IMG/VR virus record: IMGVR_UViG_3300042475_004839
Span: 1-20,481 of that record
Length of the DNA stretch: 20,481 nucleotides
Direction: 5' to 3' (one strand)
DNA from: a virus
The notes under the pieces were generated by a model. The model ran no database searches. It saw nothing but the letters and a program-made list of their open reading frames with translations, and was not told the origin of the DNA. Each line of letters opens with the position of its first letter. Position 1 is the first letter of the stretch. Position numbers and translations under genes: made by a program. Below are positions 944 to 10,549 of this stretch, piece by piece.

Positions 944-3900
944 CTATTTCTTCGGCTTGCGAAGGCTGATGTCCCGCAGCCTGTTGAGCAGCGCCTCGTA
1001 GCCTTCGCGCGTGTAGCTTGCGCCCTCACCAGCCGTGGCTGGTTTGTTTTCGCTATCAAAGACTAAGCCGCGCATCGGCTCATCCGAGTGCAGCCAGTCG
1101 AAGAACTCCTTCACCGGAATGCGCTGGCGATACATGGAGTTGCGCGTGTCAACGAAGCCAACGAGTGCGTTCCTGTCCTCGTTGATGTCCATATCGGCGT
1201 AGGCGTTGGCCAGCACCGCACCGAGGTCGTCGCCGGCCTCATTGATAAATTGCTCCATGGGAACGTAGCGGCGGGGCGCACTAAGCATCCCATCACCCCT
1301 ACCAGAAACCGGAGCATCCGGCATCGCCTGCCCACGCGGGGCGGCTTTCGGCTTCTGCAGCTTAATCCCATCAAAGACAAACAAGTCCTCACCCATCTGG
1401 GTCGCGTGGTATCCCTCTGACTTGAGTAGCGCTGTCCATTTCTTGGTTGGGAACATGAAGAGGTCTGCCGGCTCCTCGCCAGCCAGCACGTCATTGTTCA
1501 GCGCTGCAGCCTCATCCGGGTGCTTGCGGGCAAAGCGCTTGGCAAGTTGCATGGCCTCGCTGTCCTCAATGCTCAAAACCTTCAGACCTCTTGGGACTCC
1601 AACGGCAGACACATCACCATACTGCCCAGCCGCCTCGGCGCTTGTGCTCACAAATGTGCCCGGGAAGTCTCCAGCTCCGCTCGGTCCTCCGCGGTAGGCG
1701 ATGATGTGCTTGGTCTCGTCTATGCCGCTTGTATCCGGCATCGCCTGCCCACGCCTCTGCAGCGCCCGCTGCAACTGCGGATCTTCCGACCGCACGCCGC
1801 GGCGCTCCAGCTCGGCGCTGATCGCCTCGTTGCGCCGGAGCAGCTCGCGGGTCTGCGCGGCGCCGCCACGCACCGGACGGCCCTCACGCATGCCCAGAGT
1901 GGACAGCCCGAGGTAGCCTTGGTTCTCCTCGTATTGGCGTTGGAGTTGGTCGGTGGGAACGGACTCGAGGGAGTCTGGCATGGCTTGGGCGCGCGGGGCG
2001 GCTGATGGGGTGGCTTGCGGCCGTGACGCAATCAACGCCTCGTAGATGTCTGTCTGTCCGGGCTTTGTCTTGATGCGGGCGATGGGAATGTTGCCCTCGT
2101 CCAGCCAAGGGTTGAGATTGCCGGGGCGGTATTTCAGTTTGCTTGAGACAAATAGGTAGGCATTGTCTCCGGCCATTTTGCCGCCAGCCCATGTGTGGTT
2201 GCGGCCCCAAGCGCCAACGCTGTCCACCATGCCAGACTGCAATCCGCGCTCCATGATCTGCTGCGCGCGCGCGTCCGATCCCGGCCGAATGTCTTGGTGG
2301 ACTGAAAGGTGAGGAGCAATCTCGTTAAACTCTTCTCGCGTCCACTCGTAGGGGCTTTTCTCGCCAATCCCAACCATCCGCGCGATTTCCTTGGTAGTGC
2401 CGGTTGCTGGCAGCCCAAGGTCTTTTGCTCGTTGCTGAAGCGACTTGCGATCCGGCATCCCATCAGACCTACCAGAAGCCGGAGCATCCGGCATCCCCTG
2501 AGCCTCCCGCGGGATCTGCTGGGGCATGCTTTCCTGTGGCAGGTCAATGTCCACGTCTGGCCGCGGCGGCTGGTCGGGCATGAAGTTGCCGTTGGCCCAA
2601 TTGTAGTCCATGGCGGCGCCCTTGCGACCGGTGCCGCTCACGGCGTTGATGCCCTCAAGGATTAGCGTCTTGATGGCGCTGCCCTTGCCCATGCTGCCGG
2701 CGAGCGGGTTCTTGCCACGGTTGAGTGTGGTGCCGGGGTTGATTAGCGCGTTGACGATGTTCTTGCGGTCGGGGCCAATGGTCGCCTCGCCAGCCTTGCC
2801 GGCGCGCTTGTCTGCCATCCATTGGTTCACGTCGTCCATGATGGCCTGCAAGCTGTAGCCGGGGCCGCCATTGGCCGGATCAAGCGCGGGGTTGCGCTCG
2901 CCGATGGCGCGCATGGCGCGGTTGCGCATGGCGGTGAGGTCGAGGAACTGGGCCAGCAGGTCGCCGGCGGCATTGGTTGTCCACTGGTCGAAAACCATCT
3001 CGCGGTTGATAGCGTCCACGTCCTTGAGCTTGGCGGTCTTCACTTTGTCTGCCGAATTGCCGACCGCAAAATAGCGCACCTGCACTGACTCGCCGGAGTC
3101 GGCCATGCCCTCGAGCATATTGATGATCGGCAGCCACGGCTTCCAGTGGTTCTGCAGAATAATGCTCTGTGGCAATCGGCGGCCGCCAGCGCGCACCCGG
3201 CCATCACCCCAGCGCTTGAGGCCAAAGGCTGCGTCTCCCGGCGCCAACAGGTTGCGGCCCGCCATGTTCTTGACTTGGGAGTTGCGCGCCTTGCGCTCGT
3301 CGCGGCGTTGCTTGGGTTGCTTCTCAACAACACGGCCGTCCGGTCCCAGCACGCCAAAGGTGTTTTCCCGCGGCGCGGTCGGGTCGTCCGGGTTGATGCT
3401 GTAGAAATCTACGTTGGGATTGTTGGCCAAACTCTGCACGTTGCCGTCACGCGCCACCTTCACACCGCTCGGCACCTCTTGCGACGGGTCGTTGAGCCAT
3501 GCGTTGTAGGTCTTGATGTAGGCGCGCAGGTTGCGGTTGACGATGGGGTCGTCGGCCGCCACAGGGTTTTCCTTGAAAAGCTGGTCGGGCGTGATGGCCT
3601 TGCCGGTCTCTGGGTCAATGCGCACGCCAGACAGCCCGAGTGCGCGGGCATTGGCACCGAGTATGTTCTCGACGAACGTCACGGGGTTGGCGCCCGCGGG
3701 CACGCCGCGACGCAGCCGAGCATAGTCGGTGCCGGCCATCCGCCACTCCTCCACCATGATCTCGCGCCGCGCCCAGTCCGCTGGGTCTTGTCCGCCGCGG
3801 CCCAGCTCGTCCTGCGCCAGCTCGTCCATTTTGGCACGGATCTGATCGTCACTAACAACCAAGTTTTCGTTGGGGAAGTTGCGCGCGTTTTCCGACTTAA

Positions 3901-6151
3901 TCATCTGCTCGGCATATTCGCGGGCGCGGGCCATCACGCCCTCGGGGCCGTAGCGGGCATCGACCTCGGCGCGCATCGCCGCCTTTTGTTCCGACGAAAA
4001 GGCATCGCTGGAGAAGAACGCCTCACCAAATTCATGTGCGTCCACATCAGCGCGGCGGGCATCGAGGTTGACGAATAGACGCGGGCGGGCGCCGTCCGAG
4101 TTGTGCAAATAGAATCCCGCCGCACCACTCTGACCATGCGCCTTGGCGTTAAGCGCGAAGTCCGCATCGTTGAGGGGCACATAATCCACGTTGCGAAATA
4201 GCCCCTGCATGGCCGCCGTGCGGGCGATCTCGTCGAAGCTGCGCGCTTGGAACATGTGCGCAATATCGCCGCCCGCCAGCTCCACATCGGTAAGGAATCG
4301 GTTTAGCTCGCGGTCAAACCACTGGTTACGCTTCACCGCACCTTGCCGCTGCAGTTCGGGAACGGTGGCCTGGATGTCCACCAGCATACGGCCGATGTCG
4401 CTTTCGGCTCTGGCGACAGTGCGATTGCGGGCACCCAAGACCCGGCTGGCCGCGCCACCGGCCCCGCCGAGCGCAGTCCCTGCGCCATAAATCAGATTAG
4501 CGCCCTCTTCGTCGCCGCCGCCACGGGTCAGCTCGGCAAACGGCGCAGAGACGATGGCGCCCTTGGTCGCGCCGGTGGCCACCGCGGAGGCACCGCGAAC
4601 GCCCTGCACTACATAAAAGTTGGACAACCGCTCCATCATCTTGCGCGTCTTGGGCGACAGTGTCTCGTTGCGTGCCAGTCTGGCTGGCGTTGACTCCATT
4701 GCCATGAACTGGCTGGGTTTGGCTACCCGCTCGCGGATGCCAGCGGGGATCTTGGGGTTCTTGGCAATCGCCTGCCGCGCCATAATGTCGGCACCGTTAA
4801 GCGGGTCAGCCGCCTCGCGCAACATGACCGCCGCCTGCGGGAACTTGTCGCCGACCCAACGCAGCGTGCCAGCGCCCCCCTTGTGGATGACGTAAGCCGC
4901 CGCTGCCACGTTCATGGCATTCTTGAGCGGCTCAGGCAGGCTGCTGTAATTCATGCCGGCCAAGCCGCCGGCGTAAAGCGCCACGCGCCCCTTGCTCCAC
5001 ACGGCATTCTGGAATCGCTGCACCTCGCGCAGAGACTGCTCGGTTGGGCGGGCCATCTTCTGCGCGCCCTTGCCAATAGCATCCAAGATGCGCGCACCGC
5101 CGCCCTTGGCCGCGGTCGAAACACCAAGCCGCGTCAGCCCAGCACCAAAAGATGTCCAGACTAGCGGGTCGGCCCCCATTTGCATAACCATGGCCTGCGA
5201 CTCCGCAGGCATCTTTTTACCCCAGACCTGATCCATGTAGTTGGAGCCGGTCAGCCAGTCAAGCGGGGCGGCACCGGCAGTCATTAGCGAGGACGTTGCA
5301 ACTTCTGGACCAGCGCCCTCGGTGCGCTTTTGCTCTATCGACTTGAGCCGCCCGCGGAAGCGCAGGTGCTGCTGGTATTCAAATTCTTCGACATCCTCCG
5401 GCGTCACCGGCTCCAGCGTCATGCCTTGGGCGGCGTATTGCTTAATCAGCGCGTCATCGCTCGAATCTCCAGCCAGCCCGCCGGTCTGCGCGACCTTGGT
5501 GCGATACATGGCGCGGTCCATCTCGGTGATGAACTCGCCAGTTTCCTTGATCTTGTAGCGCGGCCCGCCAAGTCCGGCCAAGCCGTCGTTCATTATGCCA
5601 TATCCTTGCTGAAGCAACTCGCCAGCGTAATTGAGCGTAGCGGGCGAGCGGTTGATGGCGTCAGAAACCGCTGCGGGCCACATCGCCGGATTGTAACGAG
5701 AAATATATTCCAGCCCGTCCTTGGCCGGAATGACATCGCCGTCCTCGTTTCGAGGATCGTAACGCAGCGGCGACGTTACGCCGTCCGCAATAGTCACCAC
5801 CAGCCCGCCAACGCCCTTGGCTGTGGCCATGAAATCGCTGTCCAACAGACCCTGCTCTTGCAGCGTCTTCTTGAGCTGGGTGCGGCGGCGCCACTCGTCC
5901 TTGGGCAGGTCTGGCGCATTCGGGTCGTTAAGCTCCAAGACCTGCTGCACCAGCACCTGCTCGGCGGGAATCTCAGCTTGGGCCTCTGCCGCCTGCATGG
6001 TGACGACCTCTTCGGGCGTATACTCCGGTCCGTCCGAGAACATAGCCTTGCCCATGGGCGTGGCCAGCAACGTGGAGAGGCGAGTTGTTTCCTCGTCACG
6101 CTTCATCGCCACGACTTCCTCGGGCGACAGCTCTTGTCCGGGTTGTAGCAT
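944..6151 (-). CDS. Giant multidomain phage protein (putative ejection / polyvalent protein), 1735 aa
   Basis: Last and largest gene of the late operon, following three internal virion-like proteins, so it is probably packaged in the virion and injected into the host. The N-terminal ~1190 residues look like an ejection protein: long helical stretches with Ala/Gly-rich, weakly hydrophobic parts near residues 400-430 and 525-575. At residues ~704-712 there is VDAHEFGEAFF, like a zinc-peptidase helix but with Glu where HExxH has the second His (H706). After residue 1190 come modules separated by a repeated Q-A/G-M-P-D linker (Met at 1220, 1391, 1471, 1610; an FMPD at 1191). They are a SAP-like helix pair (about 1233-1260, KDLGLPATGTTKEIARMVG), an unassigned beta-rich part to ~1385, a helical part (1392-1470), an ADP-ribosyltransferase-like part (1475-1605: IIAYRGG, FVSTS, AGQYG, later EDLFVFDG), and an unknown C-terminal domain (1623-1735). 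Multidomain phage proteins carrying peptidase and ADP-ribosyltransferase domains are known as polyvalent proteins. Assigning this one to that class is an inference; single domain calls are by eye. Confidence 0.72.
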   Translation of the reverse strand: MLQPGQELSPEEVVAMKRDEETTRLSTLLATPMGKAMFSDGPEYTPEEVVTMQAAEAQAEIPAEQVLVQQVLELNDPNAPDLPKDEWRRRTQLKKTLQEQGLLDSDFMATAKGVGGLVVTIADGVTSPLRYDPRNEDGDVIPAKDGLEYISRYNPAMWPAAVSDAINRSPATLNYAGELLQQGYGIMNDGLAGLGGPRYKIKETGEFITEMDRAMYRTKVAQTGGLAGDSSDDALIKQYAAQGMTLEPVTPEDVEEFEYQQHLRFRGRLKSIEQKRTEGAGPEVATSSLMTAGAAPLDWLTGSNYMDQVWGKKMPAESQAMVMQMGADPLVWTSFGAGLTRLGVSTAAKGGGARILDAIGKGAQKMARPTEQSLREVQRFQNAVWSKGRVALYAGGLAGMNYSSLPEPLKNAMNVAAAAYVIHKGGAGTLRWVGDKFPQAAVMLREAADPLNGADIMARQAIAKNPKIPAGIRERVAKPSQFMAMESTPARLARNETLSPKTRKMMERLSNFYVVQGVRGASAVATGATKGAIVSAPFAELTRGGGDEEGANLIYGAGTALGGAGGAASRVLGARNRTVARAESDIGRMLVDIQATVPELQRQGAVKRNQWFDRELNRFLTDVELAGGDIAHMFQARSFDEIARTAAMQGLFRNVDYVPLNDADFALNAKAHGQSGAAGFYLHNSDGARPRLFVNLDARRADVDAHEFGEAFFSSDAFSSEQKAAMRAEVDARYGPEGVMARAREYAEQMIKSENARNFPNENLVVSDDQIRAKMDELAQDELGRGGQDPADWARREIMVEEWRMAGTDYARLRRGVPAGANPVTFVENILGANARALGLSGVRIDPETGKAITPDQLFKENPVAADDPIVNRNLRAYIKTYNAWLNDPSQEVPSGVKVARDGNVQSLANNPNVDFYSINPDDPTAPRENTFGVLGPDGRVVEKQPKQRRDERKARNSQVKNMAGRNLLAPGDAAFGLKRWGDGRVRAGGRRLPQSIILQNHWKPWLPIINMLEGMADSGESVQVRYFAVGNSADKVKTAKLKDVDAINREMVFDQWTTNAAGDLLAQFLDLTAMRNRAMRAIGERNPALDPANGGPGYSLQAIMDDVNQWMADKRAGKAGEATIGPDRKNIVNALINPGTTLNRGKNPLAGSMGKGSAIKTLILEGINAVSGTGRKGAAMDYNWANGNFMPDQPPRPDVDIDLPQESMPQQIPREAQGMPDAPASGRSDGMPDRKSLQQRAKDLGLPATGTTKEIARMVGIGEKSPYEWTREEFNEIAPHLSVHQDIRPGSDARAQQIMERGLQSGMVDSVGAWGRNHTWAGGKMAGDNAYLFVSSKLKYRPGNLNPWLDEGNIPIARIKTKPGQTDIYEALIASRPQATPSAAPRAQAMPDSLESVPTDQLQRQYEENQGYLGLSTLGMREGRPVRGGAAQTRELLRRNEAISAELERRGVRSEDPQLQRALQRRGQAMPDTSGIDETKHIIAYRGGPSGAGDFPGTFVSTSAEAAGQYGDVSAVGVPRGLKVLSIEDSEAMQLAKRFARKHPDEAAALNNDVLAGEEPADLFMFPTKKWTALLKSEGYHATQMGEDLFVFDGIKLQKPKAAPRGQAMPDAPVSGRGDGMLSAPRRYVPMEQFINEAGDDLGAVLANAYADMDINEDRNALVGFVDTRNSMYRQRIPVKEFFDWLHSDEPMRGLVFDSENKPATAGEGASYTREGYEALLNRLRDISLRKPKK

Positions 6152-6153
6152 TA

Positions 6154-7185
6154 TTACTGCTGGTTGACTGGGCCGATGACCTTGTAGGTCACGCGGCCGT
6201 CAGGATGAACAACGCGCTGCGCGCGGTTGCCACCAATCACAGTTTCTTCGCCTAGCGAGGCGATGGCCGCCTTGATTGGATCAGTCATCGCCGCTTGCCT
6301 CGCTGGAGTCATTACCGGGGTCGGCGCGGGAGATGCGGAGGGGGCCGGCGATCCGGTCGGCGATGGCGTGCGAGACGGGTCGGCCGCCGGCATAGGCGAG
6401 CGGCTCTGCACAATTTCCTCTACCGGCCGTCCAGTCATGCGCGACTCCAGGCGATCCAAAAAGTTCTCAATGTCGTTTTCTGCTTGGGTAAAATCTTCCA
6501 TCGGTAGCTTGGTCGAAAGGCGGCTCACCGACTGCTGGGCCTTTTGACCTTCCACGTCCGTCACGGGTCCGGCGCCCTTCAGTTCGGGGAAGACGACTCG
6601 AAACACGCCACCCTCGATCTGTTTGAGCAAGCCCTCAAAGCCAGCCGCCGCGGTGCCAGCCTGCGCCTCGTTGGCAAGGCCAAACATATATTCTGGCCGA
6701 CCAACCTTGTAGCCGATGGCTGCGGGGCGCCCCTTGTGGTTGCGCAATTGATTGAGTGCGTCTCGCATGATGTAAATATTGTCCAGCGAGCGCTTCTTTT
6801 CTTCTTCCGGTTTTTTTTGAAAGTCCGCCAGCTTTAGTTGCAGCTCTTCCTGTTGCATCTTGCGCATGGGGTCGTTCGCCGCCGCCGCCGCTTGGCGCTC
6901 GGCCTTCATTGATTGCGACATGTCTTCAGCCGCTTGTGCTGGCGTTGTGCTTATGCCCAGCATGTGGTATTTTTCCCACTCATCCTTTATGGCGTCTGGC
7001 CAGCTCTCGTTGTAGGGCTGCCTTAGAAAATCAAGATTGGCCTGCCTGCCTGTTGGGGCAATGGCCATGTTGGCAAAATCTTGTGGCGTTGGCTCTCGAA
7101 CGCCCTCCGGTTCTGGGGCGATGTCCAGCGTAGCCAAAGAATTACGAATGCTGGTTTCGTTGGGGTCGTAGGTTGGGGCGCTCAT
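6154..7185 (-). CDS. Putative internal virion protein, 343 aa
   Basis: The start is taken at the ATG at 7183-7185 (MSAPTYDPNE), which overlaps the upstream stop as TAATG. A longer reading from 7254 would run 70 bases into the previous gene and is unlikely. The protein has a charged, probably coiled-coil section at residues 83-148 (EDMSQSMKAERQ through EEELQLKLADFQKK-type sequence). A central motif, FPELKGAGPVTDVEGQKA at about 199-216, resembles the LKGxGxVT/ITxxE motif seen in many phage structural proteins. A Pro/Ser/Thr-rich linker (263-296, SPTGSPAPSASPAP) then leads to a small C-terminal part with DGRVTYKVIGP. It stands between another internal virion-like gene and the giant protein, only 2 bases before the latter, so the two are probably translated together. 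The role as a minor virion or ejection protein is inferred from position and the motif. Confidence 0.6.
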   Translation of the reverse strand: MSAPTYDPNETSIRNSLATLDIAPEPEGVREPTPQDFANMAIAPTGRQANLDFLRQPYNESWPDAIKDEWEKYHMLGISTTPAQAAEDMSQSMKAERQAAAAANDPMRKMQQEELQLKLADFQKKPEEEKKRSLDNIYIMRDALNQLRNHKGRPAAIGYKVGRPEYMFGLANEAQAGTAAAGFEGLLKQIEGGVFRVVFPELKGAGPVTDVEGQKAQQSVSRLSTKLPMEDFTQAENDIENFLDRLESRMTGRPVEEIVQSRSPMPAADPSRTPSPTGSPAPSASPAPTPVMTPARQAAMTDPIKAAIASLGEETVIGGNRAQRVVHPDGRVTYKVIGPVNQQ

Positions 7186-7832
7186 TAGATACCAGGAGGA
7201 TAAGGAAGCGGCTTGAGTCCATTGGCTGCGCGGCGGCGGTTGGCCGCGTCCCATGAGGCGCGTCCTCCGGGAATGGCCGGCGCTGGTGTTGCTGCGGGAG
7301 TTGGTGCGCCGGCGAGAGCGGGAAGCGGCGTGTCCACGGATGGCGCAGGCCCGCCTGTCGGCAGCGGAGGCTCAACCGGAGCCATGCCAGCCGGCGGCGT
7401 GTAGGTCGCATTGCCGCCTGCGATATTCCCGGCATTCTTTAGCCCCGCATTCACAAACGGCTGCTGCTGCTGCACGCCAAGTTTATTACCAACCAACTGC
7501 GCGTTGATCATCGACGGCATCAGCGGCGAGATGGTTTCGCTCACATTGTACCAATCCATGTCATTCTTGAGCTTGCCGCCAGAGACCGCTTCAAGCTGAT
7601 CCATGGAGATGCCCATCGATGGCGAGACGACCTTGAAGACATCCTTGAAGGCGCGGCCCTTGGCCTTGCGTCCTTCGATTTCACCATACATCTGCCCGAT
7701 GCCGGCCAGCGCCCCGCCAATATCCTGGCCGAGCTGTCCCATGGACTGGGCGTTGGTTTGCGCGGCGCCCATCATGCCTTGGGCGATGATGCGTCCGCTT
7801 TGATCTGAATCTTGGGGTGCGTATCCAAACAT
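7185..7832 (-). CDS. Putative internal virion protein, 215 aa
   Basis: The ATG at 7830-7832 is preceded by GAAGGAGAAC, a good Shine-Dalgarno sequence about 8 bases upstream, which supports the start. The N-terminus is rich in Gly, Ala, Met and Gln (IIAQGMMGAAQTNAQSMGQ), then QLGQDIGGALAGIGQMYGEIEG, a weakly hydrophobic amphipathic helix typical of phage ejection proteins. The middle (residues ~60-125) is ordinary globular sequence. The C-terminal third is a Pro/Ala-rich linker (PPLPTGGPAPSVDTPLPALAG and onward) ending in a basic patch, NRRRAANGLKPLPYPPGI. It sits between the PAPS reductase-family gene and the 343-residue protein, with which it shares TAATG. No enzyme motif is visible. The function is inferred from composition and context. 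Confidence 0.55.
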   Translation of the reverse strand: MFGYAPQDSDQSGRIIAQGMMGAAQTNAQSMGQLGQDIGGALAGIGQMYGEIEGRKAKGRAFKDVFKVVSPSMGISMDQLEAVSGGKLKNDMDWYNVSETISPLMPSMINAQLVGNKLGVQQQQPFVNAGLKNAGNIAGGNATYTPPAGMAPVEPPLPTGGPAPSVDTPLPALAGAPTPAATPAPAIPGGRASWDAANRRRAANGLKPLPYPPGI

Positions 7833-7856: not shown

Positions 7857-8666
7857 TTAAGCTGCTTCCGCCCGCAGGTAGCTGGGGCGTTCTTTTTGTG
7901 ACCATCTGAGCTGATCACTCACATTGCTCACCAGTTGGCCAAGCCGTGGGCACAGCACCTCGGCGGGTCCGTCCTTGGCCATGCACGCCGTGCAGGCGGT
8001 CACATAGTCAGGGTTGTCGGTCTTGTCGTCCCGCTCCTGCCATGACTCGCCGACCTTCTCGTAGCGTCCATGGTGGATGGGCAAATTGTTCTCCTCGATG
8101 TAGCGCCACACGTCCTCATCGGTGAAGAGGCGGATGGGGAAGACGAGGCTGGCGCTGTCCAGATTGCGCGCCACATCGGTGCGGATCGTGATGTCGCCGT
8201 AGACCGCATCCGTATCGCTCGCCTTGTGGCCATGGAACATCGCATCCCACGGCCAGTTGAACGTGCCGGTCGGCCGCTGGTAGATGTCCGCAAGTCCGCA
8301 GACAAAGTCCTCGCCGTCCTTCGGGGCGCGGATGCCGGTCGGCAGCATATTGTAGCGGGCGCCGATCTGGTAGTATCCGGCGATCTCCACCTCGCCCCCG
8401 CCGTCCTGCACCATCGTGGCCGAGGGCGGGAAATCGTAGACGCGCAGTCCGTAGTGCTGGATCACCGCATCGGCGAACCGATACTTGTGCGGCTGCCAAG
8501 GCTCGCGGTGGAAGACAACCGGCAAGTCATCCCGGTGACGCCGCACCAAGTCCAGCACCACCATGCTATCCTTGCCGAAAGAGCAAGCGATGCACGGATT
8601 GCCAAACTCAACGAGCGACTGCTCAATGAGCCGGTGGGCGTAAGAGACTTTGTCTTCGTAGGTCAT
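7857..8666 (-). CDS. PAPS reductase-family (PP-loop ATPase) enzyme, 269 aa
   Basis: Member of the phosphoadenosine phosphosulfate reductase / adenine nucleotide alpha-hydrolase family. The PP-loop is plain at residues 28-36 (CSFGKDSMV; K32, D33, S34), and the family's C-terminal signature FTDEDVWRYIEENNLPI occurs at 181-197. Cysteines at 25, 28, 123, 225, 228 and 239, including C-TAC-TAC spacing at 225-228, could bind a metal or Fe-S cluster; the short Cys tail motif of true CysH-type assimilatory enzymes is not obvious. The start overlaps the upstream stop as TAATG. Phage relatives are commonly annotated as PAPS reductases but most have no proven substrate; sulfur transfer to DNA or RNA (DndC or tRNA-type reactions) is possible. 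It is the only metabolic-type gene here and lies inside the internal virion protein cluster, like a cargo gene. Family call firm, reaction unknown. Confidence 0.85.
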   Translation of the reverse strand: MTYEDKVSYAHRLIEQSLVEFGNPCIACSFGKDSMVVLDLVRRHRDDLPVVFHREPWQPHKYRFADAVIQHYGLRVYDFPPSATMVQDGGGEVEIAGYYQIGARYNMLPTGIRAPKDGEDFVCGLADIYQRPTGTFNWPWDAMFHGHKASDTDAVYGDITIRTDVARNLDSASLVFPIRLFTDEDVWRYIEENNLPIHHGRYEKVGESWQERDDKTDNPDYVTACTACMAKDGPAEVLCPRLGQLVSNVSDQLRWSQKERPSYLRAEAA

Positions 8667-9535
8667 TAGAAAGAAACGCCGCCGAGGGCCATGCCCATGC
8701 CGACCGAGCCGAGGCCAGAGGCCACACCGCCGCCGATCCCGCCGAGCATGCCCATCATGCCTGCGTTTTGCTGCGCACCGGCCTGCATCGCCGCAGCCTG
8801 CATGGCGGCGTTATTGTTAAGCGCAGAATTTCTCAAGCTCATCCCCATATTCGTGTTGAAGCTGCTTACGTTGCCACTTTGCTGGAGCGAGTTGTTAAAG
8901 ATGTTACTCACCTGATTCTGCGAGGTGCGCAGTGTGTCGCCGCCGAGGCCGAAGGCGGGTCCGAGCGCCTGACGATATGGATCTGTCTCCATATACATCC
9001 CGCCGAGACCAATCCGCCGCTGACGCCGCGCCAGATCCATCTGGTTCACGCCAGCCGCAAACCCACGGCGCGCATCCAAACGCTGTTGCCCATAGGCATC
9101 GCGGTTGAGGATTTCCGCCGCGCTGCTACCCATCGAGGTGCTGAGACCGCGAGCGGCAAATGCCGCGCGCGCAGACTGCGAGGCTTCGCGCTGCTGCTCC
9201 GGTGAGAGCGAGCGGCCGAGCGCGAGTTCAGACTCCGCATCCCGCTGGAGCTGCGCCTCAATGGCATTAGGCGCGGACGCCGCTTGCAGCTCCTCGCCGA
9301 CAACGCCGCGAGCGCGCTGGAGGTATTCGTTGTTGAGACGACCGGCGAGCTGGTCGGCGGTGCCGAACTGCATGTTGATGTATTGCGGATAAAGCCGCTT
9401 GATCGACTCCTCTTCGGCGGCGATCTGTGCATTGGCCACGCGGATCGACGCGGCGGCCATTTTATCGTAGTCAATCGGCGCGGGCGCCGCTGGCACTGGT
9501 TGTGGCGCGGGCGCGCTTGGTCCTTTTCCTCCCAT
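8666..9535 (-). CDS. Putative internal virion / ejection protein, 289 aa
   Basis: The ATG at 9533-9535 follows CAGGAGGATAATACT, the strongest Shine-Dalgarno of the window. A Pro/Ala-rich N-terminus (GPSAPAPQPVPAAPAP, residues 5-20) is followed by long alpha-helical stretches rich in Ala, Gln, Arg and Glu (about 25-185). A C-terminal 70-residue part is rich in Asn, Ala, Met and Gly and ends in a glycine-rich hydrophobic stretch (GMLGGIGGGVASGLGSVGMG). Helical proteins with such a Gly-rich hydrophobic tail are typical of the DNA-ejection (internal core) proteins of podoviruses, although no specific family is certain. The last base of the stop is shared with the next start (TAATG). It follows the tail genes and precedes the other internal virion-like genes, which fits a role inside the head or in DNA ejection. 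Confidence 0.6.
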   Translation of the reverse strand: MGGKGPSAPAPQPVPAAPAPIDYDKMAAASIRVANAQIAAEEESIKRLYPQYINMQFGTADQLAGRLNNEYLQRARGVVGEELQAASAPNAIEAQLQRDAESELALGRSLSPEQQREASQSARAAFAARGLSTSMGSSAAEILNRDAYGQQRLDARRGFAAGVNQMDLARRQRRIGLGGMYMETDPYRQALGPAFGLGGDTLRTSQNQVSNIFNNSLQQSGNVSSFNTNMGMSLRNSALNNNAAMQAAAMQAGAQQNAGMMGMLGGIGGGVASGLGSVGMGMALGGVSF

Positions 9536-9539
9536 AGTA

Positions 9540-9884
9540 TTATCCTCCTGTTTTGCTAATTAGTTTGTTCCAATCGTAGACTCGCGGCTCAAAGCTGCCC
9601 CTGCGGCACCATGCCGCGTATTGCTGCGGATGCGGCGCCACGCGCATAAACTCCCTAACAGGGTTTGCGCGGCCAGCAGCAGCAGCCAAAGTGACGAACC
9701 AACAATTTGGCTCGCCGCTTTCAAAGGCTTGATCCTCCGCGTTCCACCGCAACTCCGAGGCGAGCAGAAACACTTCCGGCGTGGCGTGGACTAAGCCGGA
9801 CGACAGATGCTCGCCGACAAGCTCCCAGAAGTCTTGCGTCGAGTGGTTGTCCCACCAGTGTTTTGCCTTTTGCCATGGGGTCAT
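9540..9884 (-). CDS. Hypothetical phage protein, 114 aa
   Basis: The start is placed at the ATG 9882-9884 (MTPWQKAKHWWDNHS), 2 bases after the stop of the collar protein; the longer frame begins with TTG inside that gene and is less likely. No Shine-Dalgarno is seen, so translation probably depends on coupling. The protein is small, soluble-looking and rich in Trp (HWW, DFWEL, LRWN, NCWF, AAWC, DWNK). No domain or motif is recognised. It lies between the tail-collar gene and the first ejection-type gene, 4 bases before the latter's coding region, so it is part of the virion operon. It could be an assembly factor or minor component; the sequence does not say. Confidence 0.6.
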   Translation of the reverse strand: MTPWQKAKHWWDNHSTQDFWELVGEHLSSGLVHATPEVFLLASELRWNAEDQAFESGEPNCWFVTLAAAAGRANPVREFMRVAPHPQQYAAWCRRGSFEPRVYDWNKLISKTGG

Positions 9885-9886
9885 GC

Positions 9887-10549
9887 TTAGAACTTGATGC
9901 AATAGAGCATGGCAATGTTCTTCGGGCGGGTTTCGGTGCCGCCGGTTGCCGCTAAAAAGTCCCTGCCATAATCGGCATTGTCGCCCCCAACAGCAATCGA
10001 GTTAGTGGTCACTCCAGTTCTTCCGTAAAGGTAGGTAAGCGCAGCGCCGTGCGTATGGCTTTTTAGTTCATCCGCCTGCTTCGCTCCAAACGTCCCAGAC
10101 GCAGTGCCGTCGCTATTGGTTCCGCTGCCGCGCACAAAGATGCCGCGCAGGTCTGGCAAGGCGAAAGTCGTGCTGCCGTCGCCCACACCGTAGGTCGTGC
10201 CGATAGCGGCAAAGAGCGCGGCGTAGGTGCTGCGGCTTACTGCGGTGCCGTCTGCTGCCAGCCAGCCAGCGGGGGCGCTGTTCATGGCGAAGGCTTGGAC
10301 GGCACCAGCCGGAACAAGCGACTGCTGCACAGCGGTGACGAGCTTGGCCAAAGTTACGTTGCCGTCCAGAATGTTTGCCGTGGCAACGGTTATGGCTGTC
10401 GGAAGGGCGCCTGTGGCCAGTTTGCTTAGTCCAATCGCCGCATCGCTCTTGATGTCGGCGTTGACGATCTCGCTGACTGTGCGGGCGTTGTTTAGCTTGG
10501 TCGGGGTGACGGTGTCGCCGCTAGTGAATGTGTATGCGTAGGAGGCCAT
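9887..10549 (-). CDS. Tail fibre protein with phage tail-collar domain, 220 aa
   Basis: A typical phage tail-collar domain occupies residues ~80-141: VPAGAVQAFAMNSAPAGWL, then a Y-A-x-L-F-A-x-I-G-T-x-Y-G stretch, and TFALPDLRGIFVRG. The C-terminus ETRPKNIAMLYCIKF (206-220) is also characteristic of these fibre tips. The N-terminal ~75 residues are a low-complexity repeat-like fibre segment (IKSDAAIGLSKLATGALP, GNVTLAKLVTA). It is probably a distal fibre or spike protein for host recognition. No Shine-Dalgarno: the start is preceded by four 7-base repeats (10556-10583) ending 6 bases before the ATG. It follows the nozzle-like protein. Confidence 0.88.
   Translation of the reverse strand: MASYAYTFTSGDTVTPTKLNNARTVSEIVNADIKSDAAIGLSKLATGALPTAITVATANILDGNVTLAKLVTAVQQSLVPAGAVQAFAMNSAPAGWLAADGTAVSRSTYAALFAAIGTTYGVGDGSTTFALPDLRGIFVRGSGTNSDGTASGTFGAKQADELKSHTHGAALTYLYGRTGVTTNSIAVGGDNADYGRDFLAATGGTETRPKNIAMLYCIKF

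Follow-up and report, generated by a model that had tools for sequence, protein, structure and literature searches.

Phage genes labelled 'cysH' are counted as auxiliary genes of sulfate assimilation, 167 of them in freshwater phage genomes according to the accessible part of one study (PMC10914622). The closest described gene arrangement is that of phage JC1. In the accessible sections of its description (PMC9144972), whole-lane mass spectrometry of CsCl-purified virions recovered gp64 (9 peptides), gp67 (7), gp68 (9) and gp69 (51); this virion list holds neither gp65, a 'PAPS reductase', nor the small gp66, and gp65 is named in the section on moron genes alone, where the authors regard it as a moron with a probable role in sulfate reduction. 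The PAPS reductase of phage 186 is non-essential, as stated in the available text of the CSP3 paper (PMC10269572). The facts on JC1 and phage 186 concern other proteins and are applied to our locus by analogy. In the literature searched, which lay mostly outside subscription journals, the available text portions link a PAPS-reductase-like gene with ejection genes only in the 'moron' descriptions of JC1 and CSP3, and the phiGT1 paper does not mention the gene. DndC is an enzyme of the PP-loop type in which three cysteines carry a 4Fe-4S centre, IscS can replace DndA, and dnd systems share DndD/CxC and DndE as their constant core (PMC10853773, accessible part). A related enzyme functions in type-4 BREX (PMC12839542), and a paper on a Thermus phage (PMC11437467) considers that phage homologues of PAPS reductase may have roles outside sulfur metabolism too, in the portions available of both sources.

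We analysed an IMG/VR virus record of 20,481 bases, referred to here as the window, in which a gene at positions 7857-8666 of the minus strand would be labelled a sulfate-assimilation enzyme by databases. Judging by its sequence, this gene belongs to a separate family that lacks the key residue of that reaction. Given the missing residue and the place of the gene behind a probable virion gene, its product probably performs a different reaction late in infection, one driven by ATP and perhaps involving iron-sulfur chemistry.

The gene and its neighbours

The gene is an open reading frame with an ATG start that encodes 269 amino acids, and it lies in the following arrangement.

7857..8666, minus strand: PP-loop/PAPS-reductase-fold protein of 269 amino acids, the gene studied (Pfam, PHROG, AlphaFold2)
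8664..8668, minus strand: TAATG stop/start overlap without a Shine-Dalgarno sequence, suggesting translational coupling (sequence)
8666..9535, minus strand: upstream gene, 289 amino acids, 55% A/G/Q/S/N/T, likely an internal virion or ejection protein (composition, profile)
9540..9902, minus strand: open reading frame of 120 amino acids upstream of 8666..9535, kept in the three relatives compared; its start is probably at 9884 (comparison)
7185..7832, minus strand: downstream gene, 215 amino acids, with a homologue directly after the upstream gene in 12 loci with an empty slot (locus comparison)
6154..7254, minus strand: protein of 366 amino acids, presumably injected, with a match (5.3e-13) to phrog_2534 'released from the phage upon host infection' (PHROG)
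944..6151, minus strand: giant protein of 1735 amino acids at the end of the module, without a Pfam match at E 0.01 (open reading frame, Pfam)

A first-pass annotation of this DNA had reported that the gene shares TAATG with one gene and lies 24 bases from the next, and both statements hold in the sequence: at 8664-8668 the stop codon TAA of 8666..9535 and the start codon ATG of the gene have one base in common, and a gap of 24 bases precedes 7185..7832. The search of relatives for the same position that it had proposed found the one-base overlap at an identical offset in all 32 loci that carry the window's version of the gene among the best 80 of 146 loci. No Shine-Dalgarno sequence stands before the ATG (sequence GCGTTTCTTTCTAATG), and both neighbours have one (AGGAGG and AAGGAGAA). 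The overlap and the missing signal suggest that the gene is translated by re-initiation after the upstream gene. Of the late expression with structural genes that had been claimed, the co-expression is thus supported by the overlap, the missing Shine-Dalgarno sequence and the 32 loci, and the word 'late' is deduced from position.

By its gene order, the minus strand appears to be a podovirus-like late operon, which in the window extends from a 702-amino-acid open reading frame in the portal position to the giant protein. An integrase is encoded at 3-911 on the plus strand, relatives also carry an integrase, and the window holds no tRNA genes. The annotation had further taken the neighbours for virion genes. 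This is plausible from the phrog_2534 match, the place before the 1735-amino-acid open reading frame and the analogy with the JC1 gene order, although 8666..9535 itself matches neither Pfam nor PHROG at E 0.01. A PHROG scan of five further upstream and five downstream neighbours gave one weak match (E 0.0074), to a family of unassigned function.

The adjoining upstream open reading frame consists of at least 45% A/G/Q/S/N/T in 44 of 44 family loci, and in 38 of them (six being without a match) it matches the profile of 8666..9535, which was grown by iteration over the same adjoining frames on which it was scored. Among 634 open reading frames from family loci and six cellular control loci, this profile matched 34 adjoining and three other frames and no cellular one. 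The same neighbour type is kept across family members of 32-65% identity.

In the giant protein (944-6151), four (A/G)MPD linkers at about residues 1218-1612 separate C-terminal segments, as if modules had been joined in series. One of the segments shows a pattern like YRGG..STS, which we take to mark a candidate ADP-ribosyltransferase-like segment.

Turnover and distribution of the gene

The occupants of the slot behind the upstream gene were counted by searching with the upstream protein. Among the best 80 of 146 loci, the slot holds the window's version (version A) in 32, a second version (version B) in 30 and another gene in one, is empty in 12 and is cut in five; many of the loci compared here nearly duplicate one another or come from overlapping parts of a single contig, and counts of them are not independent. 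Version B is 32-35% identical to the window's version (five compared). At the 12 empty loci, the homologue of 7185..7832 lies 16-22 bases past the stop codon of the upstream gene. When the slot states are mapped on a quickly built tree of the upstream protein, parsimony requires ten changes, and well-supported branches force at least four for version A. Across 17 loci, the DNA of the gene is identical in three near-copies of the window, 95-97% identical in nine loci, 90-91% in four and 76% in L031. At the nine loci with 95-97% identity, the upstream gene is mostly 69-89% identical in DNA, and the 6154..7254 and giant proteins fall to about 26-30% of amino acids or are unmatched. The mean dN/dS among 18 distinct close copies of the gene is 0.077, leaving out L021, L022 and L032, which carry a one-residue indel in an ungapped comparison; this value and the 101 distinct full-length family proteins indicate more than a chance reading frame. 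Taken with the census and the uneven identity of the neighbours, it shows that the gene is under selection, exchangeable and dispensable, and dispensability, shown by the 12 empty slots, weakens any claim of a core role in assembly.

This pattern bears on a reading in which the product modifies nucleosides, tRNA or a small molecule, or is a moron for lysogen fitness or anti-defence, tied to its neighbours only by a late promoter and an insertion-tolerant site. Such a moron would account for the cassette turnover and the empty slots, for the near-identity of the gene at nine of 17 loci despite diverged neighbours and for the integrases of the window and its relatives, and the non-essential reductase of phage 186 offers a parallel. 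However, the neighbour type is kept both across the whole identity range of the family and beside the separate JC1-type clade (86 of 87 loci, see below), which is more than a mere insertion-tolerant site predicts, and we consider this reading possible but rather unlikely.

A protein with a CxxCxxCC motif directly follows version B in 24 of 24 loci checked (of 52 fetched) and in 14 of 22 in another set; two of the eight version-B loci without it were inspected (L134 and L166), and both are of a divergent B type. After version A this protein was seen in none of 32 loci, many of which are cut soon after the gene. At L170 (4940-5218), the small overlapping CxxCxxCC protein after version B matches PF03692 (putative zinc- or iron-chelating domain, 5.6e-9), and the motif follows version B also in L151, L129, L150, L144, L169 and others. 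At L076 (4654-5049), a SET-domain protein (PF00856, 7.1e-6, L076 alone having been scanned) overlaps the end of the PP-loop gene, and a 131-amino-acid open reading frame stands at the same offset in L078, L079 and L083, all of one phage group.

The family is almost purely viral and rare in cellular genomes. A first genome scan confirmed none of its 101 pattern matches as relatives. A scan with a wider profile yielded 36, and in the seven best of them (L172-L178, 28-38% identity) the match extends into the C-terminal cysteine region. Among these seven, L172, L173, L174 and L177 have phage-like genes around them, L175 and L178 appear to be chromosomal, and L176 is near a primase-like open reading frame, as judged by eye. 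A further sequence, L203, matches up to residue 263 with 21% identity and was placed beside CysD in the tree. At E 1e-25, the family profile matched one of 288 and one of 398 species genomes, both of them previously found. Searches with tblastn against plasmids and INPHARED gave distant matches or none, and the neighbours of the match in SPbetaL8 are annotated as hypothetical only. The versions of L172 (7992-8810) and L173 (7992-8798) are encoded on two contigs that are filed under a Euryarchaeota MAG and have phage-like gene content. The gene of L175 (4800-5615) stands between sodium:solute symporter and methyltransferase genes, and that of L178 (7914-8747) follows open reading frames of 556 and 285 amino acids, both without a Pfam match. 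L174, a phage-like contig of a Chthoniobacter flavus MAG with version B, was assigned to the bin of a Verrucomicrobiota genome, which hints weakly at Verrucomicrobiota as the host group.

Fold, conserved residues and kinship

The assignment of the gene to the PAPS reductase family in the first-pass annotation is borne out by Pfam (PF01507 PAPS_reduct, 4.5e-13, 50 bits where the cut-off is 22.5) and by matches to phrog_424 and phrog_2302, which are labelled phosphoadenosine phosphosulfate reductase. No NCBIfam cut-off is reached, the CysH/phosphoadenylyl-sulfate reductase models giving 41.7 against 154 and 34.1 against 165.1 bits and the DndC model TIGR03183 giving 14.3 against 290.4 bits. The PADLOC model of BrxP (BREX type 4) matches residues 26-73 only (E 0.00047, 16.5 bits), and the Pfam lists of the proteins picked from related contigs contain no BREX-type family; membership in BrxP was set aside. 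An AlphaFold2 model of the 269-amino-acid protein, made from an alignment of 30 relatives, has a mean pLDDT of 91.6 and a pTM of 0.89. In the VIA comparison, which hardly covers residues past 231, its neighbours are FAD synthase and CysD (Z 14.8), APS/PAPS reductases (12-14) and the sulfur transferases TtuA (5b4e, Z 12.2), [4Fe-4S] LarE (8cnz, 10.2) and NcsA (6scy, 10.2), and Foldseek concurs for CysD, APS reductase and TtuA. The BFVD entry A0A6J7XPH8, from an uncultured Caudovirales phage and named 'Phosphoadenosine phosphosulphate reductase', has a TM-score of 0.93-0.94 and 34% identity and apparently belongs to this family.

The family set comprises 151 complete open reading frames, 101 of them distinct, with the window and three cellular ones included. 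Its conserved features in the window are the following.

8565..8582, minus strand: PP-loop SFGKDS, residues 29-34 (family alignment)
8298..8300, minus strand: Cys123, in 99 of 101 family proteins
8223..8231, minus strand: GHK, residues 146-148 of GHKxxDxD (family alignment)
7983..7994, minus strand: Cys225-x-x-Cys228, Cys225 in 99 and Cys228 in 101 of 101 family proteins
7947..7952, minus strand: Cys239-Pro240, Cys239 in 101 of 101 family proteins and absent from the aligned reference proteins

Residues S29, G31, K32, D33 and S34 of the SxGKDS PP-loop are present in all 101 distinct proteins, as are G146, K148, D151 and D153 of GHKxxDxD, in which the second position is H in 55, Q in 43, S in two and V in one. 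The six cysteines counted earlier are indeed found, at residues 25, 28, 123, 225, 228 and 239. The last four are kept together in 99 of 101 proteins; in the other two, L172 and L173, both Cys123 and Cys225 are missing. Cys123 aligns with the second cysteine of the CC motif of APS reductases and with the cysteine of the DndC motif RWC, and Cys225-x-x-Cys228 aligns with the CxxC of three APS reductases and of DndC. In APS reductases, the positions aligned with Cys123, Cys225 and Cys228 are presumably ligands of the iron-sulfur cluster; a structural zinc site would also fit the four cysteines. The cysteine of the C-terminal ECG[LI]H motif is catalytic in CysH. This motif is present in five reference CysH proteins, and ECG[LIM]H occurs in none of the 101 distinct family proteins. 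Cellular proteins that combine an SFGKDS PP-loop and CxxC with a retained ECGIH also exist, so that an intact PP-loop alone leaves reductase chemistry possible.

In three trees, the family forms one clade (SH-aLRT 98-100), and CysH, CysD and DndC form separate clades; long-branch rows were left out of the second and third trees, and L263 and L265 were assigned to the DndC and CysD groups after inspection of the first. AU tests of the sister group gave p 0.247 for CysH, 0.392 for DndC and 0.064 for CysD; they do not decide between these three, and CysH and DndC are not rejected. A joint clade of the family with the JC1-type enzymes was not rejected either (p 0.326), and JC1 gp65 falls inside the family in the first tree (support 86) and outside it in the third.

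The cysteine positions and PP-loop type, the unrejected sister relation to DndC and the position in a late module would suit a DndC/SspD-like enzyme that introduces phosphorothioate or a related sulfur modification into phage DNA before packaging, with host IscS, known to replace DndA, as the donor. Against this stand the TIGR03183 score, far below its cut-off, and the branching of the family outside the DndC clade. Of the partner genes that the first-pass annotation had suggested looking for, those of the dnd type did not appear: the 18 + 22 Pfam families of 46 + 53 proteins, a subset of the open reading frames of four related, incomplete contigs (the first set without giant proteins), include no dnd/ssp-type partner, cysteine desulfurase or ParB. 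DNA phosphorothioation in its known form is therefore unlikely, and we regard the DndC/SspD-like reading as improbable. Among the 46 proteins, from L104-L107 (contigs G002 and G007), are a match to FGE-sulfatase (PF03781) and another to C-5 cytosine methylase (PF00145).

The usual reading, a viral CysH acting as an auxiliary metabolic gene that raises the supply of cysteine during infection, draws on the PAPS_reduct domain, the PHROG labels, the unrejected sister relation to CysH and the publication of similar phage genes as assimilatory, in the accessible parts of two papers (PMC10914622; PMC9144972). Domain and fold agree with it, whereas the NCBIfam scores are far below cut-off, the catalytic motif is absent throughout, the family does not branch within the CysH clade and the gene overlaps a virion-type gene. 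The first-pass annotation was right to find sulfate assimilation an odd fit, and the clustering with assimilatory CysH enzymes that would have spoken for it is not seen in the trees. We consider this reading quite improbable. Since a family that goes by this label is devoid of the catalytic motif and stands as a separate clade, part of the ecological bookkeeping of phage 'cysH' may be wrong.

Proposed function and comparison with known systems

The first-pass annotation had raised the idea of a virion-borne enzyme, and the place of the gene between virion-type and injected-protein-type genes would suit an enzyme that travels in the virion and enters the host along with the ejection proteins. 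This is very improbable, since its analogue from another clade, JC1 gp65, is off the virion list that holds gp64, gp67, gp68 and gp69 (gp66 is also off; PMC9144972, accessible part) and the BcepIL02 record names the neighbours virion-associated and not the PP-loop gene.

An intact PP-loop, cysteines of the iron-sulfur type and the lack of the reductase motif favour ATP-driven adenylation with transfer of sulfur, as by DndC or TtuA, over PAPS reduction. The reading that we prefer, and to which we give an even chance, is that of a phage-borne PP-loop ATP-pyrophosphatase family whose members act as iron-sulfur, ATP-activating, sulfur-transfer-type enzymes in the infected cell and not in the virion. 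The protein would bind a [4Fe-4S] cluster, use ATP to adenylate a substrate and pass sulfur or a similar group to it, as in DndC or TtuA/NcsA/LarE. It would be made late, through re-initiation after the upstream gene, and would act inside the infected cell on a substrate made or handled at assembly, which may be an ejection protein or the DNA being packaged. The conserved slot in the ejection-protein module suggests such an assembly-stage substrate rather than cysteine synthesis.

A survey of 102 JC1-type loci, 15 of which have no adjoining upstream open reading frame and were uncounted, found an A/G/Q/S/N/T-rich adjoining upstream frame in 86 of 87, mostly overlapping, against 166 of 450 control frames; this control for the 45% composition threshold was drawn solely from the same JC1-type loci. 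An open reading frame of at least 700 amino acids lies downstream in 22 of 52 loci with room for one, against 72 of 395 control frames, and a giant protein is thus no constant partner. The recurrent slot behind ejection-type genes in two clades is a concrete hint at the real role of such enzymes. It is conceivable, though on balance unlikely, that both cysteine-bearing PP-loop clades lie, mostly with overlapping frames, behind the gene of an A/G/Q-rich ejection-type protein of podovirus-like phages because they modify this protein or the DNA packaged with it. Their task would then be a sulfur-transfer step, peculiar to phages, in the assembly of the genome-ejection apparatus. The trees are compatible with separate origins of the clades or with one ancient origin.

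Among described enzymes, the [4Fe-4S] sulfur transferases TtuA, NcsA and LarE have, according to the predicted model, the same kind of PP-loop fold as the window protein. CysH enzymes share the PAPS_reduct fold, and Cys123 and Cys225/228 align with the APS-type CC..CxxC; the family differs in lacking ECG[LI]H, in its SxGKDS PP-loop, in having REPW/F where the references show DT, and in forming its own clade. DndC/SspD shares the SxGKDS PP-loop with a cysteine and CxxC, whereas the five DndC proteins compared have 436-523 amino acids against 269, and the family has the extra Cys239 and a clade of its own. In Caudoviricetes sp. MW202711, a reductase of the JC1-type clade, unlike the window family, lies directly between a protein matching phrog_4287 'DNA ejection protein' and one whose several matches include phrog_342 'internal virion protein with endolysin domain'. 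The Lessievirus (Bcep22-like) 'PAPS reductases' JC1 gp65 and BcepIL02 gp67 belong to this other clade. JC1 gp65 is 25% identical to the window protein (E 0.003; hhalign 96% over 60 columns), and its gene is 11 bases from the upstream gene, whereas the window gene overlaps its own. Homology between JC1 gp64 and 8666..9535 was considered and is unsupported (hhalign 54% over 42 C-terminal columns, 0.6% and 3.2% in the other two comparisons). The JC1 order is gp64 (virion protein), gp65 (PAPS reductase), gp66, gp67, gp68 and the giant gp69. Like the window protein, the JC1 and BcepIL02 enzymes have a PP-loop with CC..CxxC and are encoded between an A/G/Q-rich virion protein and further virion proteins followed by a giant one.
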